The position numbers and the translations under genes are program-made. From positions 1 to 64,000 of the forward strand of contig JBAMJV010004358.1 in NCBI GenBank assembly GCA_037951105.1: DNA of 64,000 nt. Direction: 5' to 3'. This DNA comes from Echinarachnius parma. Lineage: Eukaryota; Echinodermata; Echinoidea; Clypeasteroida; Echinarachniidae. Under the pieces are notes generated by a model. It was not told the DNA's origin and ran no database searches. It was given only the letters and a program-made list of their open reading frames with translations. Shown piece by piece: positions 1 to 60,139 of this stretch (the stretch's first letter is position 1; the number at the start of each line of letters is the position of its first letter).

Positions 1-47
1 CACCCTGTTGTTGTCTCACTGCTGTCTTTTTTTCCATGTGATGACAG

Positions 48-3000
48 GTCGTGAAGCTATCACCGCAGATAGATGCAGCCGAACTTAACATTATGGAGGA
101 TAATGATGGTCATGATGCTGTTGTCACAGTTACCGAACAATTGGATGAACTGAGGATAGAAGAGAGACTGAGTCAGAGGTTGCTCGAGATCGTGGACAGT
201 GCATCATCCCTGACGGCGAAAGAGGACCTGATCGTCACTTTGAGGTGAGCGATGATTGGGTAACACATCATCTTGTAGGTCAGAGCTATCTCGTTGTGAT
301 GTCAAATTTTCAGATAATGATTATTATTATTATATTTTTGGAAATATTGATCAAAGAGAGCTATATTGGGTGTCTACAAGGCTCCCCAAACTTGTTTATC
401 TCAGAAGTACAAAAAGTGACTTTATAGTGCAATTATCTTTCCTAGCCAGTCTTCACCCAATTTCGGTCTGTTTTATCTTATTATATACTAGTTAGTAAAA
501 TCAGAATTTAGAGGTGTAGGATTACAATTTGGGGTAAGAGTTATTAGGTTAGCGGTCACATTTTGGGGGTTGGTGAAAGGGAACTTTTTAGGCATGATGT
601 GCTAGACCAAATGAGACCAACTGATAATGAACCCAAAATACCACTTGTTCACAAAGATATTGATATTGTGCAGTTATTGTAAGCAGTTGCCTAGTTGATA
701 TGTGGCAAGGCACCATCAACGTGCAACTTCTAGCGCAGGTCTTGTTTATTCTTGTGAAAGTTATTCCAAAGCCAAATGCTGCCATTTTTGCATACTGTTT
801 TTTTTCCTCTTGGGTATCACTAATATAAATGGAATTTATGTTTTGGAGATCACAATCACAGGAGGCTGCCATGTTTTCCAACCATTTACATGCCATGTGA
901 ACTGAGCATGCAGTAACAATATCAGGTTACGTTACTGCTGTTGTAAAGTCTGTTGCTATATTAGTGGTTATGTGACCTTCTTTTGTTCGTGCATGCTCAG
1001 ATTACATGGCATGCAGACCCATGGGAAAAAATGGCAGCCTCTATTGGTCAGTCAAAACAGATGACAGTGGTCTCAAAAGACATTTTCTATCATAAGTGAT
1101 ACTCAAGAAGAAGTGACACAAATTATGCACAGTAACAGTAAGCAAAATTGACAACATGTAGCTTCCCTTTGAATTGCTGCGGTAGTGGTAAGAAATTCAA
1201 GAATTTCACACAATTACATTCTCTCTTTTTTTTCATGCAACCCACAGACATAGGTTACTGGTCCATCTAGCCAGGCAGACGGGTCACACCAAAGTCATGC
1301 TCGGAGATAACGGCTCCAGGCTAGCGGCCCAGGTCCTGACGGGTATGGCCGAGGGTCGGGGGGTCACGGTACCTCTTCAGGTGGGCTTCGCAGATGACAG
1401 GGAGGCAGACTGCGCTTTTGTAAGACCCCTCAGGTGAGCAAGCATTGCGACATTGTAAAATTGTATCCTGCTGGTCACCCCAAAACCTTGCTTGGCAATA
1501 ACAGCACCAGGCTAGCGGCACAGGACCTGACGGGTATGGCCGAGGGTCGGGGGGTCACGGTCCCTCTACACGTGGGCTTCGCAGATGACAGAGAGGCAGA
1601 CTGCGCCTTTGTAAGACCCCTCAGGTGAGCAAGCATTGCAACATTGTAAAATTGTACCCCATTAGTCACATCCAAACCTTGCTTGGCAATAACGGCACCA
1701 GACTAGCGACACAGGTCCTGACGGGTATGGCCGAGGGTCGGGGGGTCACGGTCCCTCTACAGGTGGGCTTCGCAGATGACAGAGAGGCGGACTGCGCCTT
1801 TGTAAGACCCCTCAGGTGAGCAAGCGTTACAAAATTGCACCGCATTGGTACTCTTTGTGAAGATCTAGTTAAACAAATTATCATGGGTGAGATTTACAAA
1901 TTGGTCCGAACCTGTGCCAACCTCTCTGAACATTCATAAGTAGGCTAGTTTGTGCACACTACCTAACACTGAGCCAGTGTGTATTTTGCACTATGTACAA
2001 GGTGTTTGCAAGATGGTACCGCGAGTCTGATTTACAAATCCAAATTGCATTTACATCTTGATGTAAAATCATTCGTTCTTTAATGCCTTCTATTTCCCTT
2101 GTTTCTCCTTGGCGTTTCAGAGAGTTTCCCAGTCGTGAGGTCTCTTTGTACAATCATCTGAGTGGAGTGGACTCCAACCAAGGCAGGACCGTATGCCAGC
2201 ATCAATACCCCGACTCCAGATTTTATCAATTTTTTCTTGTATGTCATTATTTCTCCCAAGAGCTGTTTTCGTTGATGTTTTGGGGATTTGCCACGTCAGG
2301 AGTTGAATCATCCAAGTTGTGTGGAGTCCGGTTTTGTCCCCCAAATCACAACTAACGGAGTACCATATGCCAGCATTAATATTTTAATGACATAAAATTT
2401 CCCTTGTTTTTCGTTTCAGAGAGTTTCCAAGTCGTGAGGTCTCTTTGTACAATCATCTGAGTGGAGTGGAATCCATTTGTCTCCCAACAATCACAACCAA
2501 GGCAGGACCGTATGCCAGCATCAATACCCTGACTGCAGATTTCATCAACGGTCTTCAGGTCAACTTCTCTTCCACAGTAAACACTGTGCTTCGGTAAGCT
2601 GTGGAAAGAAACAAATAGAATTGAAACACTTGATCTAATGTTTCATGCTGGGGAAAGATGATTCTATTATCAACTAATATGTGCTTGATATTAAATATGA
2701 TTTCATCTTTAGAAAGTGGAAAAACAAAACTGTAAAGATTTGTATTATAGGTTTTTTACCAAATTCTGTAGTTGGATCCTGACTTAAATTGATTTTGGGG
2801 GGTACAGTACAGACTCAAGTTGTAATGTAAAACATTGAAAAGCAATGTTTTATTGTCCAGCCCACCGAGGTGGAGGGAGACTAAGGGATCCACATTGGTC
2901 AAAGGTCAAATGAGGTCCAATGTTGCATGGATGCGCGCAAGTGGGCGAGACACTTTACGGCTATCGCCTTGTTGTAATCTAAGATTCGGAATGGATGGGT

Positions 3001-6000
3001 TTGACTAAAACACTGATTTATTAGCAGGCAGGCCTGTTTCTAAGCTCTGGGTCAGTGAAAATTCATGCTCCTGATCAAATTATTATCAAACTAATAATCA
3101 ATTATCAGATCTCTTTAATTAGTCTATTTAAAGGGAAACGCTGGAATTTTTCTCTGACTGTTTCTAATAAGTGCATAATTCGTGTCACTTCTGGTAATTT
3201 ATATCCGCTTCGGTATCTCTTATAATGGAAAAAATACATTTTTTTGAAACCACTATCAACTGATTTGACTGACCACTGGAGGCTGCCATGGTTTTCAACA
3301 GTACTGCATGAAATGTCATCTGAGCGCATTTGAGCATGCACTAACAAAAGCGGGTTATGTAACCGCTATTTTGAATCTGCTGCTATGTCAGGTATATACA
3401 CTTATCAGTAACATTAAGCAAAAATGCCAGCATTTGACACCATCAATTTATTCAAGGATGTTTTATAAAGATATCAAATCAAACTCAACAAAGACATACA
3501 ATATGTCAGCATTCATATCTGAACAACAGCTTGAAAAAATGTAATGTGATGTATAATATGTTGCTATAATAAAAAATATATATATTCATGACATCCCAAA
3601 GCAAAGAACACCTTAGAGATAATACAGTATACACCCATCAATACATCAATTTATAACATTAATAAGATCAAACAACTTATCTATGAATGGCTGCCAACCA
3701 TCCGTCGCCACGCTCCCCCCGCTGCGACCGCATCAAGTGACCGTAATGCAGATTGCCACGTGCTTCCCGCTACGTCCATATTTCCCCCGGTCGCCCCCGC
3801 TGCGACCGCGCCCGCACCGAGTGACCATGGTGGTTCTTGCCACGCGCTTCCCGCTAAGTCCGCATTTCCCCCGGCCGCTACGGGCGGTGATTGGCCAGCG
3901 GCACCGGCCAATGGCAGCGCGGTGTCCGCACCGAACGATACTGCACAGAAACCTCGCAGGCGGAAACACGCTCGCAGCGCAGCGCTCAGTCCACATTGCC
4001 AGATGAAGGCTAGCAGTTCGCAGCCGAAACGTCGCAATACACCAGTTTGCATACATCGTGAGGCAACCGATCTATTCGTTCTTTTTTTCAACTTATCTAT
4101 CCTTCTTAACCACTTATTATTCACAGAACGGGAGAGAAGCTGTGCACAGTGACCAAGTCAGGGGAGGAGGCAGACTGCATTATGTGCAAGGTTAGTCAAT
4201 AGTGCAATGACTATATCTAGATCTCAATAATCTATGCTGGAAATGATCTTTTGTACACTGTGGCCCAGTGGTGCCAAGTGGGGAGTTTTCACATTTGAGT
4301 GGCCCCCATAACCCGAAAGTGGTGGCCCAAGGCAGAGAGAAAAACATTTTAGTAAATTCTTTCATTTTTAGTTTACCATTTGGGCAGTAGAATTTGCATG
4401 GATGAAATTGTGGTGGTCAATAGCTAGAACAGTCCTGTGTATAGTGACCACCTAAGGTAAACAAAAATAGTTGCCACTGTAGACAGGTTTCAAAAATACT
4501 GTTTACGTTACATGGGAATTCTTTGAGTGCCCACTATAGGTAGGTTGGCTGCTATAGACAGGTGGCCACTAAGACAGGTTTGACTATATATACAGTATAT
4601 TGGCCCCGGACCAGTAAGCCTGTGCTTCTTTCAAGCTTTGCCAATAATTATCGTGATTATCTTTTCTCCAGGCTCCGCTGGATACGGCCGTCCCACAATG
4701 CTCTGCCCTGGAGTCTACCCAGCATTCCATGCAGCTGATGACTGCAAGTGCAGCTAAAGATCGGTCGAACCCCACCAGCGCGCAGTGTTCATCTCAGCAG
4801 CCTTGCAGAACCGAGGGCGAGGGGGTACCGGTAGGGGAGTCATCAACTGGGGAATGTTGCGGGGAGGGGGATGGCAGTTGTCGGTCTTCTACAAAGAAAG
4901 AAATGTGAGTACCCTCCTTTTTATGCCTCTGCAACGTAGTGGCCGGAGGCATTGGCCCGGATTCACAAAGGAGGTTTGTACAAACCATGGTTCAAACCGT
5001 GGTTTACATCTATGGAATGCCAATTGTAAACTGATGGAGAGAGAATGTGTACCATCAACATTGTTAACAAGTAAGGAATTTACATTCTCTCTCCATCAGT
5101 TTACAATTGGCATTCCATAGATGTAAACCATGGTTTAAACCATGGTTTGTACAAACCTCCTTTGTGAATACGGGCCATTATGTTTTTGGGTTGTCTGTCC
5201 GTCCGTCCGTCCGTCCGTCCGTCCGTCCGTCCGTCCGTACATACATACGTACATCCTGTTCTTGCTATCGCGATATTAAAAAAACCAATTGACGGGTTTC
5301 GACCAAACTTGTTACTTTCATGTATCTCGATAAGCCAATGAACTGATTAGATTTTGGGGTCATGAGATCAAAGGTCACAGGACTCATTATATATGCAAAA
5401 ATAGCTTGTTAACGTGATATCTCAAGAACCAATTGACGTAATGAGAGAATGAAGCTATTCGATTTTGGGGTCATGAGGTCAAGTTCAAAGGTCACATGGT
5501 TCATTAAATGTGAAAAATGGCTTTTAAGAATTTGTTGGCAGATCGCTGTCGAATCTTGGTACGTATGTATATTGAGGAGCCAATGAACTAATTAGATTTA
5601 AAGGGTCACTAGGTCAAATATCCAAGGTAACTGCTCATAAAAATTGTGCCTTGGCGGAGGCATCATTTTCGCCTGTGCGCAGTCGAAGATCCATCTAGTT
5701 TATATGAGAGTAAAATGTTACTATGACAGATGTAGGGTTTATGAGGTCAGAAGGGTATAGGGCTAATCATTTGACAATGATCTAATTCTATTTTGTCTTT
5801 TTATAGATTGAACATAGAACACCATGAATCTGTGTGGATATACTGTTGTAAGATCCATAATTTTAGGGTGCATATTTGTTGAGTCCACATGGCTATTTCT
5901 GGTTTATTTCTTTAAAAATTGTGTTCTTTTCCTCAGCTCTTTTGCCGAGGTTTCTCGATGGCTGTGCTATGGATGCCGAATTACACTGCGTGAAATGGTA

Positions 6001-8828
6001 TGTTAACTGTTGTAATTGATTAAACCATTCAGGTCCCGTAAATACTTGGGTGTGGGTCTATGGAGGATAAATACCATAACAAAATCAAACAGTGCTGAAT
6101 GGGTTAATGAATAATTTGTAGTAAATGACCTAATGTATCGTATTATCCATGATGGGTGTAAAAGTAAAAATAATAACAGGACTGGAGATTTGCTGAACTA
6201 CTCTCTTGTGACCACAATGAAATAATTGTTTCTGCTTTAAGGCTCATTGTTGAGTTGATGGCAAGTAAAACCTTGATGAAATGATGTTTTCTATCTTGCT
6301 CTTCAAGACCGAAAGCCAGGCTGGTAAGGGCCCAACACCAAGTCCAGCCTTTATAGAAAGAAACACAAAAATACTGTTGCCCGAATATAAGAAATGAAGA
6401 TATGAAAGTTATGCACTCGGTGTGGTCTCCCCATGAAGACCATTGCCATGACCCCCTATCTGTAATCATACTCTATGCCGCTTGTATTGGTGAGCAGATG
6501 GGTCAAATTTATAGCGTTCTATGGTGTGGCAAGATTGGTAGAGCGCACGCTTTCCGATCATGAGATCCCGAGTTCAAACCCTGCCCACCGTGTTTGTCCT
6601 TCAGCAAGACAATATCCACAATTGCTGCTCTCTACCCAGGTGTATAAATGGGGACCTGGTAGGAGGTGAAAGCCTTTATGTGAAGGATCGATCTTTGAAA
6701 AGGCCATGAGCCACTTGGAAGGAATGCGCCCCAGGGAGTGGAGATGGTGCACACAATGTGTGCTGGTTTGCATTGTATCCTATGACCAGGGTAATAATAT
6801 AATTGTAAAGCGCTTAGAGATGCTTATCAATCATATTAGGCGCTATATAAATCAAGTATATTATTATAAGTCAAATAAGATAATTTTGTTTGTATTGTGA
6901 GTTGTACTTTTTCCATCAGTAAAGTTTATGGTTTGATATAATTCTTTTGATATATATATTTTCTTTTTTTACAGAAAGATACTAGTTTTCTTCCTAACTA
7001 TGTGCTTGAGGAGACGGGGAGAAGGCAAAGAAGGTGAGCCTTGAGAGAAGACTAGTAATCAATTATCTGCCCATGGGGGGGGGGGGGGGGGGGGGGAGGG
7101 GGGGGGGGGTGGCTTGCGTGAAGAGTTGCCATAAATCTTACAGCTACGATTAAAACGCAAGTCAGAAAAAATCAACGTATACACATTTGAGCGAGTCAGA
7201 TTGCGCACTAAGGCACATTTTCTGACTTGTTAGTTGTATATAATCACAACTTTGTGTGATTGATCGCAATTCTGTATGCAACATCCCCCTGATTGAATAG
7301 ATAAAGAGACATTTAATAACTTCAAATGATAGATTTACTCAAATTAAAATAGTTATGATAATGAAATATTACCTTCAGCAGGTGAACAAAAAGGTAAATA
7401 CAGTGGAACCTCTCTATAACGAGCTCTGTGATAATGAGGTACCTGATATAGCAAGGTAATTTCACAGGTCCTGGTCCTTTGTGTTTTGTTGTTTTTAAGC
7501 CCTGATACTACAAGATTTCTGGTCAAGGTCTACTTGTATTTTGATGTTTTTTAAGAACTGATATTACAAGATTTCTGGTCCAGGTCTATTTGTATTTTGT
7601 TGTTTTTTATGCCCTGATACTACAAGATTTCTGGTCCAGGTCTATTTGTATTTTGTTGTTTTTTATGCCCTGATACTACAAGATTTCTGGTCCAGGTCTA
7701 TTTGTATTTTGTTGTTTTTATGCCCTGATACTACAAGATTTCTGGTCCAGGTCTATTTGTATTTTGTTGTTTTTATGCCCTGATACTACAAGATTTCTGG
7801 TCCAGGTCTATTTGTATTTTGTTGTTTTTTATGCCCTGATACTACAAGATTTCTGGTCCAGGTCTATTTGTATTTTTTTTTTTTTTATGCCCTGATACTA
7901 CAAGATTTCTGGTCCAGGTCTATTTGTATTTTGTTGTTTTTATGCCCTGATACTACAAGATTTCTGGTCCAGGTCTATTTGTATTTTTATTTTTTTAAAG
8001 AACTGATACAAGATTTCTGGTCCAGGTCTACTTGTATTATTATTTTTTTTTAAGAACTGATACTACAAGATTTCTGGTCAAGGTCTACTTGTATTTTGTT
8101 GTCTTTTAAGCCCTGATCCTACAAGATTTATGATATAACGATGTAAATTCTATGGACTAAACATGCTCGTTATAATGAGGTTTCACTGTACCGAGGAACA
8201 ATTTAAAACACTTTAATGTAAATTTGAAAATTTCTAACAACGTCTAATAATTTCTCATTGTGGCATTATTCATAATTGTATAGAATGTGTGTGTATATTT
8301 TTCTTTAAAGCCAAATGAGACTTTAAATTACAGAAATCCACTCTGTTGGCCTAACAAATTGATCAACATGGTTAAAATATTTTTTTGTTTTTGTTTGGGG
8401 CGTTTCCCATTACTGTCATTTAGCCTTAAAATGAAATTGCTATGACTTATAAAGAGGTGATCTGGACTAGTGGTAGGAGCTCTGCTCTTCGCACTAATCA
8501 GCCTGGGTTCAAAACCTACGCTGCGTCTCTCGGATGGTGACGAAAAAGGGCAATCATTGCCGTAAGTGTAACTAATTAAAATTGATTGAACTCGTCTGTA
8601 AGAACCAAATAATCAACTAAGATTGAATTGGTTATTTCCACCATGTTTTTCTTAGATGGTGACGATGAAGGGCGGTCCCAGACGTAACTAATACACATTT
8701 ATTGAACTTGTCTGTAAAAAACAAATAACCAACCCTCATCAAACATTTACATTCTCATTCATTGTTTTCCCAGGTCTGAGATGAAGGAGGAGATACAAGA
8801 TTTCCTCTTGGCCGATGAGGACAGATGA
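48..8828 (+). CDS. CTU2: CTU2, cytoplasmic tRNA 2-thiolation protein 2 (3' eight exons)
   Basis: C-terminal 342 residues of CTU2/NCS2, which with CTU1 and the URM1 sulfur relay thiolates the wobble uridine of cytosolic Lys, Glu and Gln tRNAs. Exons read from the sequence: 48-244, 1248-1433, 2420-2593, 4127-4190, 4672-4904, 5937-5997, 6975-7033, 8774-8828. All have GT donors and AG acceptors, and the phases join without a stop (1029 nt). Family hallmarks are the TKVMLGDNGSRLA stretch, GRGVTVPLQVGFAD, REVSLYNHL, the paired zinc-type cysteines CIMC and CYGC in the fourth and sixth exons, and the acidic tail EIQDFLLADEDR before TGA. The serine/glutamine-rich exon 4672-4904 is the variable linker. 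The first exons (ATP-pyrophosphatase-like N-terminus) are upstream of the window. Recognition is from family memory; no search was run. Confidence 0.9.
860..1042. repeat. Foldback element in CTU2 intron
   Basis: GAGGCTGCCAT at the left end is matched by ATGGCAGCCTC at the right end, with further inverted matches inward (ATGCCATGT and ACATGGCAT; GAGCATGCA and TGCATGCTC). A related, less complete stretch starting GGAGGCTGCCATGG lies at about 3280-3420 in another CTU2 intron. This looks like a small non-autonomous inverted-repeat element; class unknown. Confidence 0.6.
1434..1815 (+). repeat. Two degenerate tandem copies of CTU2 exon 1248-1433
   Basis: Directly after the genuine exon, two more copies follow with a period of 191 bp; each ends in the same CCCCTCAG|GTGAGCAAGC exon end and donor (at 1433, 1624 and 1815). 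The last two-thirds of each copy is almost identical to the exon (GMAEGRGVTVPL, VGFADDREADCAFVRPLR); the first ~50 bases are diverged and the acceptor AG of the true exon is not preserved. Each copy is open in its local frame, but 191 is not a multiple of three, so reading straight through is not possible. Most likely a local DNA duplication that is not spliced in. Confidence 0.8.
2121..2400 (+). repeat. Degenerate copies of CTU2 exon 2420-2593
   Basis: A copy at 2121-2240 begins after a good acceptor (GGCGTTTCAG) and encodes the same REFPSREVSLYNHLSGVDS start as the true exon. It has lost about 20 bases after that and has no donor. A second, more diverged piece at about 2318-2385 matches the middle of the exon (TCACAACTAACGGAG... 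ATGCCAGCATTAATA). Together they form a partial tandem array just before the functional exon. Confidence 0.75.
3672..4080. repeat. GC-rich repeat island in CTU2 intron
   Basis: A sharply bounded GC-rich block inside an AT-rich intron. It has an internal tandem duplication of about 78 bp (GCTGCGACCGC at 3721 and 3799, each followed by CCGCTA.GTCC and TTTCCCCCGG). It ends with GATGAAGGCTAGCAG and GCAGCCGAAACGTCG, which resembles the stem II plus GAAAC part of a hammerhead ribozyme as found in Penelope-like elements and retrozymes. Open frames run through both strands because of composition; I do not call a gene. Retroelement fragment is an inference. Confidence 0.45.
4430..4595. repeat. Tigger/mariner-like repeat of the 'ACAGGTTTGACTGTA' family, partial
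   Basis: Alternating TGACCACCT, GACAGGT and TGGCCACT words, ending ACAGGTTTGACTATA, match fuller copies at 41272-41442 and 42344-42521. Further copies are at about 18990-19066, 30375-30840 and 59478-59635. The fuller copies have inverted ends starting CAGTCAA and are flanked by TA. Confidence 0.6.
4921..5700 (-). repeat. Dispersed 'TATGCCTCCGC' repeat, copy A (interrupted)
   Basis: Minus-strand copy of a repeat seen four more times at 36660-40554 and about 44095-44895. Starts TTATGCCTCTGCAACG, includes a GTCC microsatellite at 5191-5237, GGGTCATGAG..AAAGGTCA blocks, and ends GGCGGAGGCATCATTTTCG plus AGTCGAAGATCCATCTAGTT. A 223-bp foldback element has inserted at 4954-5176. Lies in a CTU2 intron. 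Confidence 0.75.
4954..5176. mobile_element. 223-bp foldback MITE, copy 1
   Basis: Nearly perfect hairpin: GGCCCGGATTCACAAAGGAG at the left is complementary to CCTTTGTGAATACGGGCC at the right, and almost all of each arm pairs around a centre at about 5065. A second copy of the same length is at 30460-30682. The insertion interrupts the host repeat GGAGGCATTATG, leaving GGAGGCATT before and ATTATG after, so ATT looks like a 3-bp target duplication. No protein; non-autonomous. Confidence 0.85.
6022..6110. repeat. Short TTAA-ended repeat (about 90 bp)
   Basis: ATTAAACCATTCAGGTCCCG at the left and GCTGAATGGGTTAATG at the right form imperfect inverted ends. Similar sequences are at 25670-25763 (TTAACCCGTTCAGGAC to AAAGGGGTTAA) and about 27728 (TTAAACCCATTCAGGAC). 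Probably a tiny element with TTAA target preference; assignment tentative. Confidence 0.45.
6520..6868 (+). mobile_element. tRNA-derived SINE
   Basis: tRNA-like head with an A-box region GTGGCAAGATTGGTAGAGCG and B-box-like GAGTTCAAACCC. A conserved body follows (CAGCAAGACAATATCCACAA, CAGGTGTATAAATGGGGACC), with a tail GCGCTATATAAATCAAGTAT followed by ATTATTATA. This is the classic layout of tRNA SINEs in marine invertebrates. A partial relative is at about 43366-43445. Confidence 0.8.
7401..8188. mobile_element. TA-flanked Tigger/pogo-like element carrying a minisatellite
   Basis: Inverted ends of about 23 bp: CAGTGGAACCTCTCTATAAC at the left, and GTTATAATGAGGTTTCACTG at the right, whose reverse complement begins CAGTGAAACCTC. 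Each end is bordered by TA (7399-7400, 8189-8190). Almost the whole interior is a tandem array. The ends resemble those of TcMar-Tigger elements. No transposase inside. Confidence 0.7.
7486..8125. repeat. Minisatellite, about 57-60-bp unit, roughly 11 copies
   Basis: The unit GATACTACAAGATTTCTGGT + CCAGGTCTATTTGTATTTTG + TTGTTTTTTATGCCCT repeats with little variation in the middle and more variation at both edges (AAGAACTG in place of GCCCTG), the usual pattern of an array growing from its centre. Sits in the last CTU2 intron. Confidence 0.9.
8446..8735 (+). mobile_element. Degenerate tRNA-like SINE fragment
   Basis: Head TGGACTAGTGGTAGGAGC plus CTGGGTTCAAAACCTACG looks like decayed A and B boxes. 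The downstream body is partly duplicated: ATGGTGACGAAAAAGGGC at about 8534 and ATGGTGACGATGAAGGGC at about 8656, each followed by CGTAAGTGTAACTAAT or CGTAACTAAT and TTGAACTCGTCTGTAA or TTGAACTTGTCTGTAA. Confidence 0.55.
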
Positions 8829-10955: not shown

Positions 10956-11012
10956 TTAAACAAATAAAAAATAAACAACATACATTTAAGGGTATGTGTG
11001 TGTGTGGTTTTA

Positions 11013-11046
<34 letters not shown>

Positions 11047-13333: not shown

Positions 13334-14166
13334 ATGGTTGTTAACAACGACGAATTCCACCGGCGGACATCGCTCTCGTCAAGTCTTCGTCGACTGCGCA
13401 ATCGGAACGGGACGACATCGACCGCCAACCTCGACCTCATCCAAAACGATTACGCACAGGATCAGGAGGTCGATGATGTGGGAATAGACAACCCGATCTC
13501 GATTATATGCGATGTCGATAGAGATATCTCGAGAGCGTATTATACTTGCGAGCAGAACGCTAGTTGCGAAGCTGAAGGAATTAAAACTACACATCTATCA
13601 CAATTAAAGTCGGCGCAAGACGACATCCGAACCCCAATCACCAATTTGGAAAAATTACATACGGCTGGAGAGGATGATCATGATGATGATGTAAAGAGGA
13701 AATCCAAATGTTCTTCAAGTTCTTTTCCTCTCAAGCGGACGTTCGGGTCGCTCCACTGCTTCGCCATGCTGCTGGGCGTCATGGTCAGTTTCGGCTCCCT
13801 GTTCTCCGTACGAAATATCGTCGTCAACGCGGGCGGCCTCGTTCCCGCCATCTTCGTTTGGATCTCCGCTGGAGCGATGATGTTCGTCGGCGCCCAGTGC
13901 TACGCGGAGCTAGCGACGTCGGTGGGGAAGTCCGGCGGTGATTTCATCTTCCTGTTCCACGCCCTTCCCAATACGATGCCGTCGTTCATGCAGGTATATG
14001 ATCGATGTTCTGAAAGTATGATGAATGATGATGATGATGATGATGTTGATGATGATGATGTTGATGATTATGATGATGATGTTGATGATGATGATGTTGA
14101 TGATTATGATGATGATGAGTAGCCTATGATGATGAAGATGATGATGATGTAGTAGTAGTAGTAGCC

Positions 14167-14252
<86 letters not shown>

Positions 14253-14300
14253 ATAATAGTAGTAGTAGTAGTAGTAGTAGTAGTAGAAGTAGAAGTAGAA

Positions 14301-14357
<57 letters not shown>

Positions 14358-14388
14358 CTAGTAGTAGTAGTAGTAGTAGTAGTAGTAC

Positions 14389-14474
<86 letters not shown>

Positions 14475-17400
14475 TACTATACGAGTTGTAGTTGTAGTTA
14501 GTAATATTAGTAGTAGAAGTAATCGTAGCAGCAGCTGTAGTAGTAGTATCAGTCTTCGCGTAATGAAGTGATTCATCGTCAATCATCATTTAAAGGTACA
14601 TGATTTGACCAAACATTTCTTACACCTGTTCAAGGGGTAAAGCATACCTTAACAAAATATATATCGAATTTGTATAGTAGCAGGATTAGCGTGGTCGTCG
14701 TTATTATAAGTAAGGAGTTAGTAGTATTCACTTTCATTAATTTGAGCCTACACATTTCAAATAATGTTTTTTTTTTAAATATAGATATGTTCTATGCCTT
14801 TAATTTGATTAACATTGAACAGGTGTGGATGGGTCTAGTCCTCGGTTCTGGAGCCAGTATATCGGTGCTAGGGCGAATGGGCGGCGTCCACTTATTGAAA
14901 CTAGTATGTCCGAAGTGTCTTGACCTCGACAAATCGCAGCTGCCCATCAACCTTGTTGCAGCCGTGATTATTTGTAAGTCAAAAATTAAGCTTCTAATGT
15001 TGACTTCTAAAATTCTTGTCATATAATAAAATATATCCAAAAGTGAATCGACTTCTTAGTTTGGATAATAAACCAATTTGTACAATTTTTCCTGAGATTA
15101 GCTTTTTCAATCGTTTTTCCATGGGTATAGGGTGCATGGTTTTTCAATACGTAACTATTAAATTTAGTTTTTTTAAATCTTTTCATTGAAAAGTAATGTA
15201 ATATCACTTTTCAATGAAAATATACTACAGTATATGTATGTTTACTTAATAATATTTATACAGATTTAGGAAATAAACACACAAAACAAAACAATTGCTG
15301 GACATGTATTGTTAAATCCGAGGATTTTCTTTTATGATTATATGCTACAAAAAATATTAAACTATAGCTCATAACTTTAATTTTAAGTTCGTTTAGATGG
15401 TTTCTCATATATGACATGTACAGTATATAATTTTCTTTGTTATTGTAATCGTTAATGCATTTATACAAAATAATGATGTTCTCCGTCGTGTTTAGTAAGT
15501 CGGATTTGAAAAGTAGTCCCCGAAAATAATTTATTCAATTTTTCGTGTTATTCTGTAGGTCTGTTCATTGCCGTCCACTGTCGCAGTTCTCTCGCCGCCG
15601 CCCGCGTTCAGGTGGTTCTCACAGCGATAAAGTTGTTCACATTTTGTTTCGTCATCATTCTAGGATTTATCCATCTAGCTACAGGTAATTATTAAGATAA
15701 TATTCATTGTAAGAACATAATTATGCGGTTATAATAACAACCAATTATACTTTTTTAACGAGATATTGTGTTTGACTGCAGGCAAGGCAACGCTGCTATT
15801 AAAATATCAATGTAATAAAGATAATTCGAGATTTGTAATAATAAAATTTGATATATTTATAAATCATAAGTTATAATCAATAAGACATGTATTATTATTA
15901 TATTGATCCGCGATGGTGAAACCCTTTTATGATCCCAATACATAAAATAAAACAACGTTTCTTTGTAATGTGATGTTTTCAATTTAGGCTGGAAGTCCAA
16001 CTTACAAGAAAACGCATGGTACGTTCCGCCGACTGGCGATCTAAATCCGATGATATCATTTGCTGTAGCATCAATGTCGTATTCGGGATGGTAAGTGAAA
16101 TGGTATAGATGTAGGATAAGCTAGAGTTAGTCTATGACTATGTATCATGGGATTAAATGACACATTTATAGCGGAACAATTATCGCTAGAGCAAAATATA
16201 ATTGAACATTGCACCCCTTTATTATGAGCTAGCTTTGGGTATATTCTTGACTAGTTGACTAGCACTATATATAACTAAGTGTCACTTTTGGTTCTCTTTA
16301 AGATCTTCGACTTTTTAATCTCAAAATGTTTTGTTTTATCTTTTAGATTAATAATTTAATATGCTTCTATATTTTCTTTTAGTTTCTCATTATTCTTTGC
16401 TTATATTTAACCTTGGTATTTTTGTAACGATATGTTCTCTTTTACACTCTTTGTATTTTATGATGTAAATGCGTTGTTGTTGTTAATAAACTGTCAAGCT
16501 TCACTGTACTAAAATTAGCTTTGTTCCCTGTTATTTCCAGGCAGACTGTTGCATTCATGACGGAAGAGGTTAAAAAGCCAGACAAGTAAGCTAAAAATGT
16601 AATGATATTTAATAAACGTGCACAAAAAGTGTATGACTGTTTTCTAAAATTGTACAATATTTTCAAGAAATTGGTGCTTTTAGTGGTTTGTATTAAAATG
16701 GGCAGGTATGAACGATATTCAATTTAATGAAAAATATGTAATTTCGGCAGTTGAATTCCAAACATATTTACCGTCTCTATGCGGCACATTGATTTCCGTT
16801 ATGATCAAACTGATATAAATAAGTCATGTTTGATTGGTTGGTCTATTCCATAACCATAGTGGCCATCTCTTATCTGTATATAGACTTTATTTCCAATTGA
16901 TACTTCGTGACCTGTATTAAATTTTCTTCTCAAAATGTTAAAGGAATCTAGTAACTTTCTGACATGTGCAAAAAGTGATTAATGGTTGATACAATGTGTG
17001 TTATCGTGATCTGATACGTATGTCCACTGAATAATATGTGAACGTTTCATGTTAAATGGATGTTATATGGCCAAGTAATGGGCGAACATGCAAAGTGATA
17101 TTCACTAACTCATTGCACTGACTTTGTACACGGTATTAACTTTCCATTGGATAGTTAAAAATCTGAACACATCAATCGTAAATATTTTTTTAACGAAAGG
17201 ATAATTTAAAAAACGAAACCTGTTCCATGCTTCTAGTGTTAGTATGAAACAATGTATGAGAGAACCGCTAGAGTTCCCAGTATATTTTGAGGATTTGGAC
17301 AATGTTACTAGATCCCTTTAAATGGTTTCTTTCCTTAATTTTCTCTTCTTTCTCAAGGACGGATATGATCGCCATACCGTAAATACATTTACCAGAACTT

Positions 17401-20400
17401 AGCTTATGTTATAACTTTTCTTTTTCCTTTCTTCATTTCCCTTCTTTCCCAAGGACGATTCCGTTTGTGACGTCACTTTCGGTCATAATCGCCATACTGC
17501 TCTGCATCGGACTCAACATAGCTTATGGTACCCTACTGACCCAGGAAGAACTTCTTTCGAATCAGCCGATTATCATGGTAATTAGCAAAATTGTCGAAAT
17601 CTACTAAACTTTCCTAGTTCTCACATTATCACATAACTTCTTGTACTCGAATTACCATTAGCAATATGGAGCAGGTTTTGGTTTTTTCCGAATTTCACTT
17701 TCGTTATAAAGATATTTATATCTTTCGTTATAAAGATATAATTGATTCAACAGATAGAGAAACGGACCAGAAATATAATATGACTAAAAAAGAGCAAAGA
17801 AAATGCCGCTGGAATCCAATTTTCTTTGCTCTTTTTTAGTCAAAAATATAATTGAATACAGTGTTCGGATTTTCATTTATCTAATGGAAAATTATAACTG
17901 TTTACAAAGTACGTGCAGCGAGTTAGTGAACACCACTTTGCATTTTTGCTCATTAGTCGGTCAACCAATTATATTATTGTATTTATATTGATTATTGTAC
18001 ATATCAACCATTATCTAAATTTTAATAACTTAACAACTTATTTTCAATACAGTATTAAGTGAACTGACAGTAATTTTCAAAAAATGCTTTCTTAGTTACT
18101 TATTCATTTGTTTCGTATGAAATTATGTCATACGAATTACATTCAAATTAAGCCAAACTATCATGATATTAGTTTGGCGTAGTTTTAATATAATTATTGT
18201 GCGTCGTTGTATGTTTTCATCCGATTGTTTGTAAAGGCGGACGTTTATCTCTTCGATATGGAGAATGTTGTACCCCCACAATTACCAATATCGATGGGGA
18301 AGACTTTGATTTCTGTGGGATGTAATACTGACGCTTATTTCCATTACTCTAATCATTATCGATTATCTAGTTATATTAGTATATTATCATTATTCATGTG
18401 TTTCTTTATCCATGAATAACCCAGGAAAATATAACTATTCATCCCTTTTCTCGCGTTTTCAGCTCGTAGGATACAAAGTTCTGGGATCGTGGGCGCGGCT
18501 GGTTCATCTGCCGATCGCTGTCTGTGCGCTCTCCGATCTGAACGTCGTCATCTTTACGGTATCTAGGTTTGTATAATTGTGTACTACGTCACTTTAACCC
18601 TATAAAGCCTTTTTTTGTTGGGGGGGGGGGGGGGGGGGGCGTGCCCCCTTCCATATTCGTTGCCACTTCTACAAGTTTTGGTCGATTTTCACCAAATTTA
18701 GTGACTTTTCCTAAAATCTTATTGCTAACATTTTGATTAAATATTGTAACCCCATTCCCATTATGCCAATAGTAACCACGAAATGAAAAGCATGTTTTCA
18801 TTTCGATGACATTTTTTCCTTTTCTCAGAGTAGACAAGTCAAGTTTTTGTTTGTATCAAATGTGATACAAATTATCAACAATAAGTTGTCTTTTATTAAA
18901 ATCAACTTCAATGGATTCGTTTTTTGCCAAAATCAATGAAAAATAATAAGAAATTTAAAAACACTGTATATATCTATTTGCAAATAATATATATAGGGGA
19001 TCATTTTTGTGGCCACTATAGGCAGGTTGGCTGCTAAAGACAGGTGCCCACTAAAACAGGTTTGACTGTAAACATAAACAATTAGTAATTTACTACATAT
19101 ATAATTGTGTATATTGTATCTTACACTGCAGAATGTTCTTCTCGGCCGGTCGTGAAGGACAATCGCCACAACTTTGGTCAGCGGTCAGCGTGAGACATAA
19201 CTCCCCCACACCTGCTATTCTTATTATGGTAGGATATACATCACGACCAAATTGATATCATTGCAGCAAATAGTCTAAATCGTATACAAAGATACAACTT
19301 TTAATATTAAAATAAAATTAATAACAGCAGCTGTTATTAATTTTATTTTAGTATTATAAGTTGTATCTTTATATACGATTTAGACTATTGTAGATATATG
19401 ATCTCCCCAAAACATGGATAATTTAATCACCACGGATCTTGCCAATGACATCCCATGGCTCATCTTATTACACTGTTAAAACGCTGTGTAAAAAAACGCT
19501 GTGTAAAAATGGTTGTAAATCTTTTCATCCAACTTTAGGTATAGCATGATTAGTTGTATGAAGAATGGTTGCGTGAAGCGGCCATTATTCAAGCGTTGAT
19601 GAAACGTGTTAAATCACGTGATAGTTTCGACCGCAAAATCACCGCGTCAAAACCTCTTTTGTCCCTTCGCAAACCAAGCGAACCGAGATACCGCAGTCGA
19701 TAGAGAGTGAGACTTATAACCCAAAGATCCCCGGTTCGAATCCTACCCTTGCCCCTTTTACATCTTGTTTTGTATTTGCTATTTCAACAACGGGATTGTT
19801 GAAATTTATTCTAAACAACAGTTGTAGAACAGTTGTAGAACAAATTAAAACAACAGTTGTGTAAACTTTAAACAACTGGGGTTGATGAATGTTTCCAACA
19901 ACAGTTGGATGGTTCATATGTCAAACAGCGGTTGTTGAAAATTTCAACAAGTTGTTGAATTTGTTTACACAGCGTTTTAACAGTGTATGGTAGGATATAT
20001 CACTGCCGAATTGATATCATTGCTGTTATTAACTTTATTTTAGTATTATAAGTTGTATCTTTATAGATCTCCCCAAAACATGGATAATTTAATCACCACG
20101 GATCTTGCCAATGAAATCCCATGACTATTCTTATTATGGTAGGATATATCACCGCCAAATTGATATCATTAGTGTTATTCATTTTATTTCAGTATTATGA
20201 TAGTTGTATCTTTATATACAATTTAGAATATTGTAGATATAGATCTCCCCAAAACATGGATAATTATATCACCACGGATCTTGCCAATGACATCCCCACT
20301 ACGACTATTATTATCACTGCTAAATTGTTGTTATATGATACTTAGTATTACAATTACTGATTTTTGTAACCTTATTATAAGTTATATATCTACAACATTT

Positions 20401-26589: not shown

Positions 26590-27170
26590 AGATATTCAAA
26601 TGAGGGGCCTTCCTCCCCCACTCTCTTTCCTGCTCCGTAGGTGGTCAATGGTGGAGTTGTAGTGCTTTATGATCCGTTCTGTCTAATTTACTTCCTATAA
26701 CTAGTCATTCAAGCACTTATTCATATTTTCCTATATTATTAACACAATATGCAATAAAAAATGCTATAGCACAAGTTCTTCAAATAAGGGCCTTTCATTT
26801 CCACTCTCTTGCCTGCTCAGTAGGTGGCCACTGGTGACAAAGTAGTGCTTGATGATCTGTTCATTGTCGAAGATTCTATAGCGCAAGTCCATCAAACGAG
26901 GGCACTTCCTTCTGAACAAGAGTCCACATTTTCCTGTAGTATCATGGTATGAACAATTAAAGATTCTATAGCGCAAGTCCATCAAATGAGGGCCCTTCTT
27001 CTGCACTCTCTCGCCTACTATATAGGTGGTCAATGGTGTTGTAGCAGCGCTTAGTGATCTGTTTGTCAAAGATTCTATAGCGCAAATCCTTCCAAAGAGG
27101 GCCGTACTTCCCTTCTCCGTAGGTGGTCAATGGTTTTGTATGTAGTGCTAAGCAATCTGTTCTGCCTGGG
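26590..27170 (-). repeat. About five degenerate copies of the VPS35 terminal exon
   Basis: Downstream of the VPS35 stop codon, blocks at about 26592-26690, 26764-26866, 26870-26950, 26958-27065 and 27067-27170 repeat the end of the last coding exon. They share GATTCTATAGCGCAAGTCC(TTC/ATC)AAA.GAGGGCC, the AGGTGGTCAATGGTG block and the TAGTGCTT.GTGATCTGTTC block. Spacing is roughly 100-110 bp. Several keep the CTATAG stop context; all carry indels. They could be part of the 3' UTR of VPS35. Confidence 0.8.
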
Positions 27171-27225: not shown

Positions 27226-51895
<24,670 letters not shown>

Positions 51896-55205: not shown

Positions 55206-55300
55206 AGAGGAACAAAACATCAGTAATAAACCTTACTAATATTAGCGAAAGTTGTTTTTTGACCTTTGTTCATTCTCATCTATAACAGTCTCTTATCGTC

Positions 55301-58300
55301 ATGGATGTCCAGACAATGAAGAAACTTGGTGGGAAATTAGGCATCACCTCCAATAAGTTATTGAGGTAATATAAGTAACGGTGTGTTTGTGCATGTTGAT
55401 GTTACTTTTCCGCGTGTAAAATGAATGTTTGGCACGTCGCACGGCTCGGGCCGCGGGGCCGGGCCGGGCCGGGCGGCGGCGCGGCGGTAGCTTCGGTAGC
55501 GTAGCGGCTAGCAGCTAGCCAACGCCGCGCCAGTGCAGTACACAAACTCAGTGATATAATTGGCCAAAGAAAGCGTTAGGAAGACACATTTTCATTCATT
55601 TTTGGACATTATCATTGAACATGTCATACCTAACGCCATAGTGCAGAGTATACAAATTGCTGCTGGTGTATTGCTGGTGTATATGGACAGAAAACATGAC
55701 AAAAAATCGTACCAGAATTGATTTTTTTAGTTTTACTTTGAATTTTACACGACCTGGTCCTGGAAGAAAAGATCATTATCTTCATAATTCAGGGTGGATT
55801 TTAATTTGATGGACATAAACTTCGGAAATATCGGCACTTTTCTAGCCAAATTTGTGCGAAAATCAGTCCAAAATTGCCGATATACATCGTATGTAGTAAC
55901 AGTGCAAGTGCGCTTGTGGTATTTTTCTAGACTTTCAAAAGGCGTTTGATTCCATTAGTCATGATAATTAATATACTTCTTGCTAAATTGAATCATTATG
56001 GTATACGTGGTATTACACTGGCCTTATTTCAAAGTTATTTGAGTGATTGCAAACAATTTACTGTTTTTATTTTTCTCCATAATTCTTGCCAACAATCAAT
56101 CTGTTGTGGCATACCACAGCACTACGAACTATTCCCCATTCACCCTGTACAACGGTTGGCTGCAGCTCAGCGCGCGATCTCATTGGCTGCCTTGCTCATG
56201 ACGTAGCTCCTCGGTGCACGTGCCCGAAATCAGCTTTGCAGCTCTGTGTAGAATATCGCATGGAGGTAGTATCGATAGCACGCGCAGGCGCAATTGCGGG
56301 CGGCCACGATGCCCACCCCTTCTCAAAGTATCGTGAGCGATACTACACGCCAGCATCTGAGACGGTACAATTCCATGCATATTACAGCGACTGCTCTCAT
56401 ACAACCACAACACAGGTATTATACATACACATTATTAATCTAGAAACATCCACGAACACGATGCGACACCGACGGAAATTCGTAAGAATATCATGAAAAG
56501 TATACTACTTACCGAAATCACAGTAAGACCAAGGTATCGTATGGGCTTTCCGCTCTTGAACAGCACTTTCAAAAAATCGTGAAAAATAGAAGAAAAGTGG
56601 AAACTAGGCCGAGTTTGGTACCAGATGAAGCACAGTTGCAAGCAGAATCTTGTAGCACACCGCACGCAGGTGTAGAGGTAAGCTAGTGCGCGTGCGCATC
56701 CATTTCATTCATAAAAATCGGCCCGATGCTGTCGTAGTAGTGACGTCACGTAATTAGATGAATACGCGCTCGCTCGACGAAACCCGGAAGCAAACCCGGA
56801 AGCCATCCGTTCGTGCAATAGTTCGTAGTGCACAGGGATCGATTTTAGGTCTGCTTTTATTTTTGATATATATATATTAATGACTTACACAGAGTATCCC
56901 CTTATTTGAATTTTTTATTATTTACAGATGACACAAACATTTTTTATAAACATAAAAATGCTGATTCCTTGACTCAGATTTTAAATGTTGAATTGATAAA
57001 GTTAATGAATGGATAAAAGCAAACAAATTGCAATTGAATTATGATAAAACTCACATTATGGTATTTAATACAGGTGGGGATAATATGAATAAAATTCAAA
57101 TATGTATAAATGAAAATATAATAAAGCATGTTGACACAACTAAGTTTTTAGGTGTTACTATTGATAGAGACTTAAAGTGGAAGAATCATGTGTACGATAT
57201 TTTACGTAAAACTTTTAAGATGATAGGAGTCATGAGTAAATTGAAAGATACTTTACCACAGAATGTTCTATTGCTATTATATAATTCTATGATATTACCC
57301 TACTTGTCTTATTGTAATATAATATGGGGATCCTGCAATAAATATTTACTTGATCGTATTTTACTCTTGCAGAAAAGGGCAGTTCGTATTATTTGTCATA
57401 AGCCATTTTTAAGCCACTCAAGACCCCTATTTTTAATGTTGAAAATTGTACCCATTAATTTATTGTATGAATTCCAGTTGTGTGTGTTTATGTACTCATT
57501 TTATAATAATTTATTACCAAAATCAATTAGCAATACCTTTCAGTGCAATAGTGATGTTCACCACTACAATACTAGAACTGCTTCAGATATTCGTGCAATA
57601 TATGGACGTAAATCCTTCTCAAACTCTATATTTTTATGCAAAGGTCCATTATCATGGAATAGAATAGACTACCTATTGAAATTAAACAGTGTAAAACTTT
57701 AAGCAATTTTAAAAGAAAGCTCAAATCATACTTAATGCTACAAATTTAGATGCAACATAACTTTTTCTTCTCTCTTTCTTGTTTTTATAGTAAAATTTTA
57801 GAAATTTTTAGTAATTCACATTTTCCCATTTTTTTTTTTTTTTTTGTATAGATTAATTAATTTTTAATTTTTTTGGTCGTATGTATACCTTTTATTCGCT
57901 TGCCCCGAGGATTGTCTATTTATAAGTTCTTTGTAACTTCCAGACAATCCTTCCACTCTTCATATCTGTTCTTTGATTGTTTTTTTTTCTTTTCTTATTT
58001 TATCCTGTGTTTGCAATGTACTTTATGTATTGTAATGTTATTTTGTATACTTGTACAAATGTATTATATTGTTTTTATGAAAGTGGAAATAAAATTCAAT
58101 TCAATTCAATTCAATGCAATTCATAGATGGCCCCTAGGGTCAATGCATACATACTTGATGTACATGTATTGCTGGCAGTGGGGACTGCAATCATAGGCAA
58201 GAAATTTGGATCGTTTTTCCTAAATTATTTTTGGATTTCAAGTTTTCAACTCTGGATTTTAATTTCTACCAAGAGGTATGATTCCCTTTTAGATGTTTAT

Positions 58301-60139
58301 CACAGTAAAGACTAATTCTAGTGATACATATCACATTTTAATGTCTTTCTAGTCTAGCATATCAGTATTGATTTCTCACACACTGGAAATACTACATCTG
58401 TACTACATATCATTGCAAGGGGCTTATACAGTAAGCCCCTTGACTTGCAGGGGTGGTGTGGACTTTGGTGCCATATGAATTGAGGGAAATGCCAATTTGG
58501 ACATTATCTTTGAAGACGTGCCCACGACTTGGTATGTATGACTAAAAGAACCCATGCTCTATGCAATTTGTAGTGCATTGGTTCTTTTAGTCATGCATGC
58601 CAAGTCGTGGGGCACGTCTTCGAAGAGAATGCCCCAAGGCCCAATTTGATGATTAAGTAAAGCAGTGAATAGATTGATTGTTCAGGGTACGCTACAACTT
58701 GCAAGTGCACAGACGGCTAGTCAAATTTCATAAATGTCCAGTTTGGTTGCAGTTCGGGTAATACCATGTATGGTAACAAACAACTACGAAAGGAAAGAAG
58801 CAAGAATTTGCCAAGCATGATTTCTTTCTTTTGTTTCACATTGCCTTTAGTTTTTGTGGGCAAGTTCATTTTCTGTTTGGGCAATGAAGTAAAATGTGAA
58901 CATTTAGGCATTCTCTACCAAAGCGTGCCCACGACTGTACTTGGCATGCATGACTAAAAGAACCTAAGATCTATGCAATTTGTATAGAGCATCGGTAACA
59001 TTTTTGTCACTAAAGGCATGCATACCAAGTCATGGGCATGCTTTAATAGAGAATGCCAACATTTATTTTCATTTTACTTGCCCCAACAGGCAAGAAGAAA
59101 AACGTTACTGAGGAGGCCCTTGAGCTAGCTGCCAATTCGATGATGATTTGACCTTATTCCTACATGTGTATGTATCTACAGGAGGGCACAGGAGCTACAC
59201 AGACTGCCATGAATGCCTCATGCCAATCTGTAATGTGCCCTTGGGCTAGCTGTCAATTTGATGATGATTTGACCTTAAAATAATAATTCCTTCATGTTTG
59301 TTTGTTTCTACAGGAGGGCACAGGAGCTCCACAGACTGGCCCTGCTGCGATGCAGCTCGGCCCTGGCCATGAATGCCTCGTGCCAGGCCGTCATGTGCCT
59401 TGAGCTAGCTGCAGCGGAACAAGACCACCCTGTCGACAAGGTAGGTTGGTTCACAACCCATCCCACCTAGATTATAGTTAAACCTGTCCCAGTTGCTGCC
59501 TGTCTATTTATATTGCAGCCAACTTGCCTATTATTTTGGCCACCATGGGTGATCCCCTTGCAGAGAAAAATCATGTTATAAAACCTGTCTCTATAGAGGT
59601 CACCTGTCTACAGTGGTCACTATTATTGTTTCCCTTAGAAGCATAGCAAAAGGGCCGGGGCACAATCGCCCCCCAATAATTTGATCAAAACGATTTGAAA
59701 AAAGGGAGCAAATTATAAAGGCAAATTTATGTAATGTGTGCACCCCAATAATTTGGGTTACTCCACATTCAGTCCAACCATGCCAAGCCACTGTTCTAGC
59801 CGAATAACTGTGTCACGCTCAAAATGGGCAAGTGTGAGTATAGTCTTACAATGATATGAATGAAGTCTCAAATATCATGTTCTAAATGGTATAACCTTAT
59901 TATGAAGTTACTGGATCACTTTAAGTGACTCTCTTCTTTTGTTTAATACTTCATTGTTATTTACTTTTTGTATAGACCTCGGCCATTCAGCTGTCGGGTG
60001 TCAACAAGAAGGTCTACACATGTTCCTTTAAGACATTCCAGACTCTGCTGGACATGGAGCCAAAAGTGAGCATCAGAGATTTGGCTGTCCAGTTTGGCTG
60101 TGTAGGAGCAGTGGACCATGCAAACAAGGTTCTCCAAAG
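55301..60139 (+). CDS. ORC6: ORC6, origin recognition complex subunit 6 (first three exons)
   Basis: Smallest ORC subunit, needed for MCM loading at origins. Exons 55301-55365, 59314-59440 and 59976-60139 join in phase to 118 codons plus two bases. ATG at 55301 has G at -3 and +4. Residues seen match the N-terminal TFIIB-like cyclin fold: KKLGGKLGITSNKLLRRAQE, ASCQAVMCLELAA, HPVDKTSAIQLSGVNKKVY, IRDLAVQFGCVGAVDHA. Human ORC6 is about 252 aa, so the second cyclin-like half and C-terminal helix are missing and presumably lie beyond 64000. Intron 1 holds a LINE with a nested transposon; intron 3 holds a pogo-type pseudogene. Confidence 0.9.
55430..55535. other. Small CpG-dense island in ORC6 intron 1
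   Basis: CACGTCGCACGGCTCGGGCC then GCGGGGCCGGGCCGGGCCGG and GCGGCGGCGCGGCGGTAGC: extremely GC- and CpG-rich within AT-rich DNA, starting 65 bp after the ORC6 first exon. May be part of the promoter, though the GGGCC run is also a simple repeat. Confidence 0.6.
55915..58122 (+). mobile_element. 5'-truncated, decayed non-LTR retrotransposon (CR1/L2/Rex1-like)
   Basis: Reverse-transcriptase remnants in order: FLDFQKAFDSISHDN at about 55926 (usual D..KAFD.I.H), GIPQ interrupted at 56119 and resuming as QGSILGL at about 56832, FTDDTN at 56930 (the YADD-type catalytic box with A changed to T), then an open 224-codon stretch 57028-57702 with KTHIMVF, KFLGVTIDRDLKW, LPYLSYCNIIWG and NTR. The 3' end is an AATTC microsatellite at 58093-58122. 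Stops and the nested insertion show it is dead. The thumb/C-terminal style fits the CR1/L2/Rex1 group; exact clade uncertain. Confidence 0.85.
56120..56830. mobile_element. 711-bp non-autonomous DNA transposon, Transib/RAG-like ends
   Basis: Starts CACTACGAACTATT and ends AATAGTTCGTAGTG, exact 14-bp inverted repeats. It is flanked by CACAG on both sides (56115-56119, 56831-56835). Removing the element and one CACAG restores GGCATACCACAGGGATC, which codes for the standard reverse-transcriptase motif GIPQGSILG, so the 5-bp target duplication is certain. CAC-starting ends with 5-bp duplications characterise Transib and RAG-like transposons (ends CACWATG-like). The interior is GC-richer than its surroundings with one unplaced 100-codon frame; no transposase recognised. 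Confidence 0.75.
58510..58626. mobile_element. Foldback element 'CGTGCCCACGACTTGG', copy 1
   Basis: TTGAAGACGTGCCCACGACT pairs with AGTCGTGGGGCACGTCTTCG, and GACTAAAAGAACC with GGTTCTTTTAGTC. A diverged copy is at 58907-59057. In ORC6 intron 1. Confidence 0.7.
58907..59057. mobile_element. Foldback element 'CGTGCCCACGACTTGG', copy 2
   Basis: GGCATTCTCTACCAAAGCGT + GCCCACGAC at the left pairs with ATGGGCATGCTTTAATAGAG + AATGCC at the right; inner GACTAAAAGAACC is kept on the left arm only. Confidence 0.65.
59100..59290 (+). repeat. Degenerate copies of ORC6 exon 59314-59440
   Basis: At 59181-59256 the acceptor TCTACAG and GAGGGCACAGGAGCT.CACA, then CCATGAATGCCTC.TGCCA and ATGTGCC, repeat the true exon with about 35 bases deleted, which breaks the frame. 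A tail-only fragment (CCCTTGAGCTAGCTGCCAAT) precedes it at 59120, and both are followed by the same TTGATGATGATTTGACCTTA, showing two rounds of duplication. Confidence 0.8.
59478..59800. repeat. Tigger-like fragment plus GTGGCTTGG-type element fragment
   Basis: 59478-59635 has CCTGTCTATTTATATTGCAG, CCAACTTGCC and GTCACCTGTCTACAGTGGTC as in 41272-41442. 59635-59800 carries GGCCGGGGCACAATCGCCCC and AGTCCAACCATGCCAAGCCA, related to 11965-12261. Both lie in ORC6 intron 2. Confidence 0.5.

Follow-up and report, generated by a model that had tools for sequence, protein, structure and literature searches.

Nearly half of the exons examined in unrelated genes of this genome are accompanied by local, partial copies of themselves, here called echoes, which lie most often at a near-constant offset of about 188 bp from the sequence they repeat. 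This offset is newly found here and was absent from an earlier note on the same DNA, which had described tandem, decayed copies of exon pieces in all four genes of the window (the whole 64,000-nucleotide stretch that was analyzed). We see about an even chance that these are mirage-type echoes produced by backward template switching over ~190 bp and that their formation is nearly neutral.

Partial exon copies in four genes of the window

The window forms the start of contig C4356 in an assembly of 1.2 Gb and 14,790 contigs. Its self-alignment yielded 83 local direct repeat pairs. This self-comparison confirmed that partial copies of their own exons occur in all four genes (CTU2, a transporter, VPS35, and ORC6) and, together with exon inventories, recovered nearly every case that had been listed, with E-values of about 7e-9 to 4e-158. 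The names CTU2 and ORC6 follow the earlier note. VPS35 lies on the minus strand and has 16 coding exons, as judged by comparison with the human sequence. The features are as follows.

1248..1433, plus strand: CTU2 exon, source copy; acceptor ending in CACAG, donor CAG/GTGAGC
1474..1819, plus strand: CTU2 exon, 3' part echoed twice together with its donor and ~40 intron bases; 88-91% identical, period 191, both haplotypes
2092..2548, plus strand: second probable CTU2 exon and its copies; exon identity by eye, window haplotype
19215..20314, plus strand: repeated segments of the transporter, which by eye is SLC7-like; offsets 149, 692, 761, 842, 910
26595..27161, minus strand: last VPS35 exon (E16, 27226-27395), 3' part echoed in an array downstream of the exon; both haplotypes
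41804..41940, minus strand: echo of the 5' part of VPS35 E10 (41486-41749); offset 180, 85% identical, both haplotypes
46444..46958, minus strand: VPS35 E5 (46150-46385), 5' part echoed three times; first offset 186, both haplotypes
47116..47842, minus strand: VPS35 E4 (47890-48063), 3' part echoed four times; spacing 167-204
48173..48281, minus strand: VPS35 E4, 5' part echoed once; offset 187, 91% identical, both haplotypes
49875..50008, minus strand: echo of the 3' part of VPS35 E2 (50146-50241) with ~79 bp of intron; offset 192, 90% identical
50955..51070, minus strand: echo of the 5' part of VPS35 E1 (50750-50851); offset 174, 89% identical, both haplotypes
59116..59206, plus strand: ORC6 exon (about 59300-59450), 5' part echoed at an offset of 121; window haplotype only

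The CTU2 array comprises 2.9 units in the self-alignment and is plainly tandem. The second probable CTU2 exon (~2092-2229) is followed by a copy at 2397-2548 and a weaker intermediate copy at 2306-2381, with offsets of 305, 174, and 145. In the transporter, the repeat set at 19215-20314 consists of genuine copies, and the assignment of an exon as the copied element was made by eye and from the earlier note; the other transporter case (17344-17420) proved marginal, being a single 36-base pyrimidine-rich match (83%, offset 97) that is absent from the repeat pairs to which the E-values given above belong. The repeat pair at ORC6 joins 59116-59206 with 59237-59338. By eye, a 236-codon open frame at 56992-57702 resembles a fragment of a non-LTR reverse transcriptase, and overlapping open frames downstream of ORC6 (60182-61159) resemble a pogo/Tigger-type transposase.

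Echoes of six of the 16 VPS35 exons (E1, E2, E4, E5, E10, and E16) lie where the earlier note had placed them; exon length does not separate these six exons from the other ten (p 0.33). Intron sequence was copied along with the exon pieces, amounting to ~79 bp at E2 and ~32 bp at E4 (exon borders are approximate), which supports the claim that they arose at the DNA level and rules out processed retrocopies. Also borne out is the claim that unrelated genes are affected alike while their main exons stay readable. The VPS35 exons themselves are free of stops; several echoes, that of E10 among them, contain stops.

Echoes on two haplotypes

A second contig, C1417, aligns to the window in reverse, from end to end with interruptions. 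The alignment spans 54,677 columns that are 93.7% identical (6.3% mismatches), with 72 indels of at least 40 bp over 64 kb. On this sequence evidence we take the two contigs to be the two haplotypes of one animal, assembled separately. Gene counts from the assembly would be inflated, because haplotypes are kept here as separate contigs. The copies of the first CTU2 exon and all six VPS35 echo cases are present on both haplotypes and have diverged by 5-28%, so these shared copies are not assembly errors. An artefact, which the earlier note had entertained, would find some footing in an assembly that keeps two haplotypes and contains repeated regions; misassembly would yield near-identical copies, however, and we regard this explanation as scarcely credible.

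Copy number differs between the haplotypes for the ORC6 unit, an echo of VPS35 E14 (59 bp, present on the other haplotype only), and the E4 3' array, which has four echoes on the window haplotype and one or two on the other in the stretch searched. The E2 echo lies 557 bp distant on the other haplotype and adjoins a 364-bp insertion. Near 15.6 kb, beside a probable transporter exon, the haplotypes differ by 210 bp, and the copies are 211 bp apart on the other haplotype. Such differences of one unit, 121 bp in the case of ORC6 and 210 bp in that near 15.6 kb, reveal turnover of units. The idea that haplotype indels represent fresh echoes was rejected, as 51 of the 72 indels of at least 40 bp have no local match. 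Those situated at echoes look like units lost from or gained in old arrays.

The haplotypes also differ at other repeats. Two MITE-like hairpin copies of ~235 bp (4947-5181 and 30453-30687; 94% identical, arms 95-98 nt, loop 33 nt) occur in the window, the first of which coincides with a 226-bp indel at 4954 and is missing from the other haplotype. A long GAT-type trinucleotide array (14021-14500), which follows immediately on a transporter exon and in frame would encode an aspartate tract, differs by ~300 bp between haplotypes, and a minisatellite with a 55-56 bp unit (7443-8132) is shorter by 611 bp on the other haplotype.

A mitochondrial contig of the assembly (L070) carries COX1, tRNA-Arg (trnR), ND4L, and COX2 and uses TGA as a sense codon. 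This order is tabulated for a starfish, and the gene orders of starfish and of 27 sea urchins are stated to be identical (PMC6262923); a sea cucumber has it as well (PMC11245801). COX1 looks most like that of a sea urchin. An amphioxus origin, suggested by the likeness to mirages (see below), is argued against by the mitochondrial order; a search for the GFP family also gave no match, which carries little weight because its control gave none either.

A near-constant offset

Genome-wide searches for the kinesin and cullin families supplied 60 exon loci, of which 39 were kept after 21 were dropped as overlapping or near-identical alleles. When each local repeat cluster in the loci is represented by its minimal offset, the distribution peaks at 180-200 bp, and smaller heaps appear at these values in the window and on the second haplotype. 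Offsets of 165-215 bp were found for 33 of 55 exon clusters versus 8 of 47 non-exon local repeats (Fisher 1.5e-5), where the window contributes the minimal offset of each cluster (for E16, the best-scoring 184 instead of 90) and the loci their best-scoring pair. With minimal offsets throughout, the counts are 31 of 55 and 8 of 47 (p 4.5e-5). With the probable CTU2 exon at 2092-2548 counted among the exon clusters, the result is 33 of 56 versus 8 of 46 (p 2.0e-5), or 31 of 56 by minimal offsets (p 9.3e-5). The window's exon list for this split includes transporter exons placed by eye. Across the 51 exon clusters with offsets between 100 and 400 bp, the median is 188 and the interquartile range 176-204.

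Within the window, 7 of 11 exon clusters and 0 of 19 others fall in the narrower range of 170-200 bp. The kinesin and cullin loci in their first classification gave 20/36 versus 11/36 in the range of 165-215 bp (p 0.056; p 0.21 for 170-200 bp). When their exons were annotated by paralogue search, a reclassification made after inspecting translations, the split became 24/44 versus 7/28 (p 0.016; p 0.12 for 170-200 bp). By eye, 4 of the 7 non-exon locus clusters in the 165-215 bp range (4 of 8 pooled) resemble unannotated kinesin or cullin exons. That range was chosen after the first offsets had been seen; a fresh test was provided by 24 exons picked later from the match lists of chaperonins and adaptins, in which 9 of 13 best offsets fell within it versus 0 of 5 for non-exon repeats. 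Longer arms go with shorter gaps only weakly (r -0.33, p 0.075, n 23), and it is thus the offset peak by itself that argues for a constant step.

Shape of the copies and their spacers

Most echoes reach one end of their exon. Among 58 hits, which derive from 30 exons (in the loci, exon limits are approximated by domain borders; L064 and L067 are dropped, and loci outside the 39 are included), 26 lie upstream and reach the exon start only, 15 lie downstream and reach the exon end only, 14 reach neither end, and 3, all belonging to one exon (L068), reach both. The reverse arrangement, in which a 5' end is copied downstream or a 3' end upstream, occurs in 0 of the 58. This is the pattern expected of local duplication across one junction with the complete exon retained. 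Whole-exon tandem duplication, with both splice sites and an open frame, is not what the hits represent, given that both ends are held in 3 of 58 and that several copies contain stops. For the same reasons, the proposal that such copies are a major source of new exons was not supported.

Spacers were compared with their flanks by local alignment in 44 gapped pairs with spacers of at least 25 bp. No homology was seen in 31, and 13 retained it; in simulations that left out indels of at least 40 bp, the test had a power of 88-98% at 20-30% divergence. Given this power, simple decayed tandem duplication fails to account for most gapped pairs, and the 13 homologous spacers indicate that some pairs are plain tandem duplications that have decayed. 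The proportions are similar when the arms are at least 85% identical (17 of 25 without homology, 8 of 25 with), and for offsets of 150-230 bp, 6 of 24 spacers are homologous. True multi-copy tandem arrays are present in CTU2, L047, L068, and L015. The description of the copies as tandem therefore applies to CTU2 and several arrays and fails for the many pairs whose spacer of at least 25 bp has no sign of copying; plain slippage, which had been offered as a mechanism, is insufficient for the latter. A very recent tandem duplication of 156 bp that involves no exon is found in L081:1-362 (98.5% identical).

Echoes in other genes and the excess at exons

As the earlier note had surmised, the tendency extends beyond these four genes. 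Before any loci were dropped, a copy touching the exon was found in 28 of 60 kinesin and cullin loci versus a mean null of 0.30. In the retained set, 17 of 39 exons have a local copy versus 10.7 expected from stretches of the same length taken from other parts of these loci (p 0.013), and the excess is seen at stricter identities as well (13 versus 8.1 at 80%, 6 versus 2.6 at 88%; p 0.02-0.10). In VPS35, the 6 of 16 exons hit at the 80% cut-off compare with 2.0 expected from non-exon pairs (p 0.0085) or 3.3 from all pairs (p 0.094); at the loosest identity cut-off, VPS35 has no exon excess (6 versus 5.6 or 7.1). Echoes accompany 13 of the 24 chaperonin and adaptin exons versus 2.05 expected, a somewhat low expectation because these stretches are only 1.1 kb long; the match lists from which the exons were picked are by themselves too insensitive to reveal echoes. 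Pooling the three sets gives 36 echoed exons of 79 (46%), with search settings that differ somewhat and well-conserved genes only.

Clusters with offsets of 165-215 bp contact exons in 40 of 53 cases versus 23.1 expected from random shifts within the stretches. In the window, which was not chosen for its exons, 6 of 9 such clusters touch exons, and the per-cluster chances sum to ~2. Local repeats away from exons are common too: of 30 clusters in the window, 19 were classed as non-exon, among them the one at 2092-2548, which probably represents a CTU2 exon. Elsewhere in the window, a dispersed repeat family with 137-153 bp spacing and TGACCTTTGACCT-like motifs occupies 36658-40555 and 44123-44860.

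A copy of a constrained exon remains recognizable longer than a copy of an intron, and the exon bias is therefore partly ascertainment. Indeed, when cut-offs were matched for age (88% for exons, 80% elsewhere), the excess in the 165-215 bp class shrank to 10 versus 6.2 expected (p 0.044), in line with what the earlier note had suspected; in this test, the clusters judged by eye to derive from exons (window 26595; L013, L018, L033, L061) were left counted as non-exon, and the window exon list again included the by-eye transporter exons. Looser intron cut-offs gave p values of 0.07 and 0.21. The intron background consists of the window, the second haplotype, and exon flanks only. The exon bias is present in the raw counts, and ascertainment may explain a good part of it.

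Age and constraint

For 13 echoes present on both haplotypes, 1594 alignment columns contain 147 fixed differences between exon and echo, whereas echo alleles differ at 56 columns and exon alleles at 16. None of these 16 exon-polymorphic columns is shared by the echo on the same haplotype, a comparison with few informative sites in which echoes were chosen for presence on both haplotypes and exon columns common to several echoes were counted repeatedly. Because of the fixed differences and the absence of shared polymorphisms, the 13 echoes are older than the haplotype split and not visibly converted since. In the cullin locus L040, echo and exon agree at every one of 98 bases, and this echo is hence recent or was converted.

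Mismatches in 33 exon-echo pairs number 78, 73, and 203 at the three codon positions (57% at the third). This tally uses the best hit on each of 33 exon sides, excludes L064, L067, and L068 (echo-centered), L040 (no mismatch), and L054, and takes in loci dropped from the 39. Of 348 changes, 183 are synonymous and 165 non-synonymous. The synonymous share exceeds that expected for a freely decaying echo and could reflect past constraint or old gene conversion. Individual pairs can be more extreme (14 synonymous versus 4 non-synonymous for E10, 7 versus 0 for L030).

A model for the echoes and its alternatives

We favor a model in which a growing DNA end would step back by approximately one nucleosome repeat (about 190 bp) and re-copy 50-200 bp. 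If the end then ran on, a tandem unit would result that could later expand or contract; if it returned instead, a gapped echo would be left. Copying across a single junction would be nearly neutral, because the full exon and its outer splice sites stay in place, and selection would tend to purge copies of a whole exon. Published nucleosome repeat lengths are 207 bp for Hydractinia somatic cells and about 250 bp for sea urchin sperm (PMC9903204). Because of the latter value, the nucleosomes that set the step, if any, are probably not those of mature sperm.

A stronger version, which we consider rather improbable, holds that the process is directed to exon boundaries. Here, a nucleosome on a GC-rich exon would join entry and exit DNA, and a stalled end would jump back ~190 bp and insert a templated copy; the fossil echo beside nearly half of exons would then record germline nucleosome spacing. 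The opposite position, which we deem possible although doubtful, is that ordinary tandem duplication of ~190 bp occurs everywhere and that the association with exons reflects ascertainment together with selection against whole-exon copies: intron copies decay to invisibility, and exon copies, one partner of which is constrained, stay recognizable. The real multi-copy arrays (CTU2 with its 2.9 units, L047, L068, L015), the small age-matched excess with its marginal p values under looser cut-offs, the homology kept in 13 of 44 spacers, and the lack of an excess for VPS35 at the loosest cut-off are all in keeping with ordinary duplication. It accounts less well for the different offsets of non-exon repeats, only 8 of 47 of which fall in the 165-215 bp range (4 of these 8 being exon-like by eye), or for the 17 of 25 spacers that lack homology between arms at least 85% identical, despite good power.

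Such spacers, along with sharp edges and the synonymous excess, would be explained if ancient 190-bp duplications had their exon parts kept alike by gene conversion while the spacers decayed, and the identity of the L040 echo to its exon over 98 bases fits this account. Yet the E2 arms take in about 79 bp of intron, and 0 of 16 exon-polymorphic columns are common to the echo, albeit with few informative sites; we judge this account unlikely. More improbable still is that the echoes function as alternative or mutually exclusive exons. The mostly synonymous pairs (E10, L030) would suit such a role, but both exon ends are present in 3 of 58 hits, all from one exon, stops interrupt several echoes including that of E10 itself, and 165 of the 348 pooled changes are non-synonymous. 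We infer that backward template switching, with a step that a nucleosome may set and a selective filter acting on whole-exon copies, best accommodates the tandem and gapped forms together.

Comparison with known systems

If nearly half of an animal's exons are flanked by partial copies with a near-constant step, then a duplication process associated with exons would be common and yet easily missed in annotation. Echoes would then act as a source of decoy splice sites and of raw material from which introns could be gained, and would confuse exon annotation and PCR. It is tempting to speculate that germline chromatin spacing might be readable from sequence. A literature search at the level of listings, outside subscription papers, turned up no sea urchin example of such echoes.

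Misprocessed Okazaki flaps in yeast rad27 mutants generate small local duplications during lagging-strand synthesis that are strictly tandem and flanked by short repeats. The echoes are likewise small and local, whereas many of them are gapped. Intron gain by tandem duplication is also a local duplication within a gene, but it yields a new intron at that place; in the present case, the copy decays within an intron that the gene already had and keeps. In lancelet PGBD5, tandem repeats with units of 60 and 108 bp lie at splice sites (PMC3902484). These duplications cover 5' and 3' splice sites, as echoes do, in one gene of a different lineage.

The closest likeness is to the "mirages" of amphioxus, described in Adh3 and the globin genes BflGb6 and BflGb9 (Ebner et al. 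2010, PMC3087553). Mirages are tandem copies that span a 5' or 3' exon-intron boundary, with units of 150-160 bp in BflGb6 and 157 bp in BflGb9. The BflGb6 mirages number 6 and 3 copies on different haplotypes, their units are 81-100% identical, many mirage copies retain splice signals, and splicing is described as undisturbed (PMC3087553). The echoes share two of these properties: they are local copies with exon and intron bases across a boundary, and their copy number varies between haplotypes. In arrangement the likeness is partial: mirages are tandem, and so are the echoes of CTU2 and of several arrays, whereas a spacer that shows no homology separates 31 of the 44 gapped pairs. Ebner et al. 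reported mirages from a handful of genes and proposed a broader occurrence among cephalochordates (PMC3087553); the echoes occur in an echinoderm, as indicated by mitochondrial gene order, at nearly half of the exons tested and at an offset of ~188 bp. "Mirage-type" here denotes likeness, not descent. If the present reading is true, it suggests that amphioxus mirages are one instance of a wider deuterostome phenomenon.
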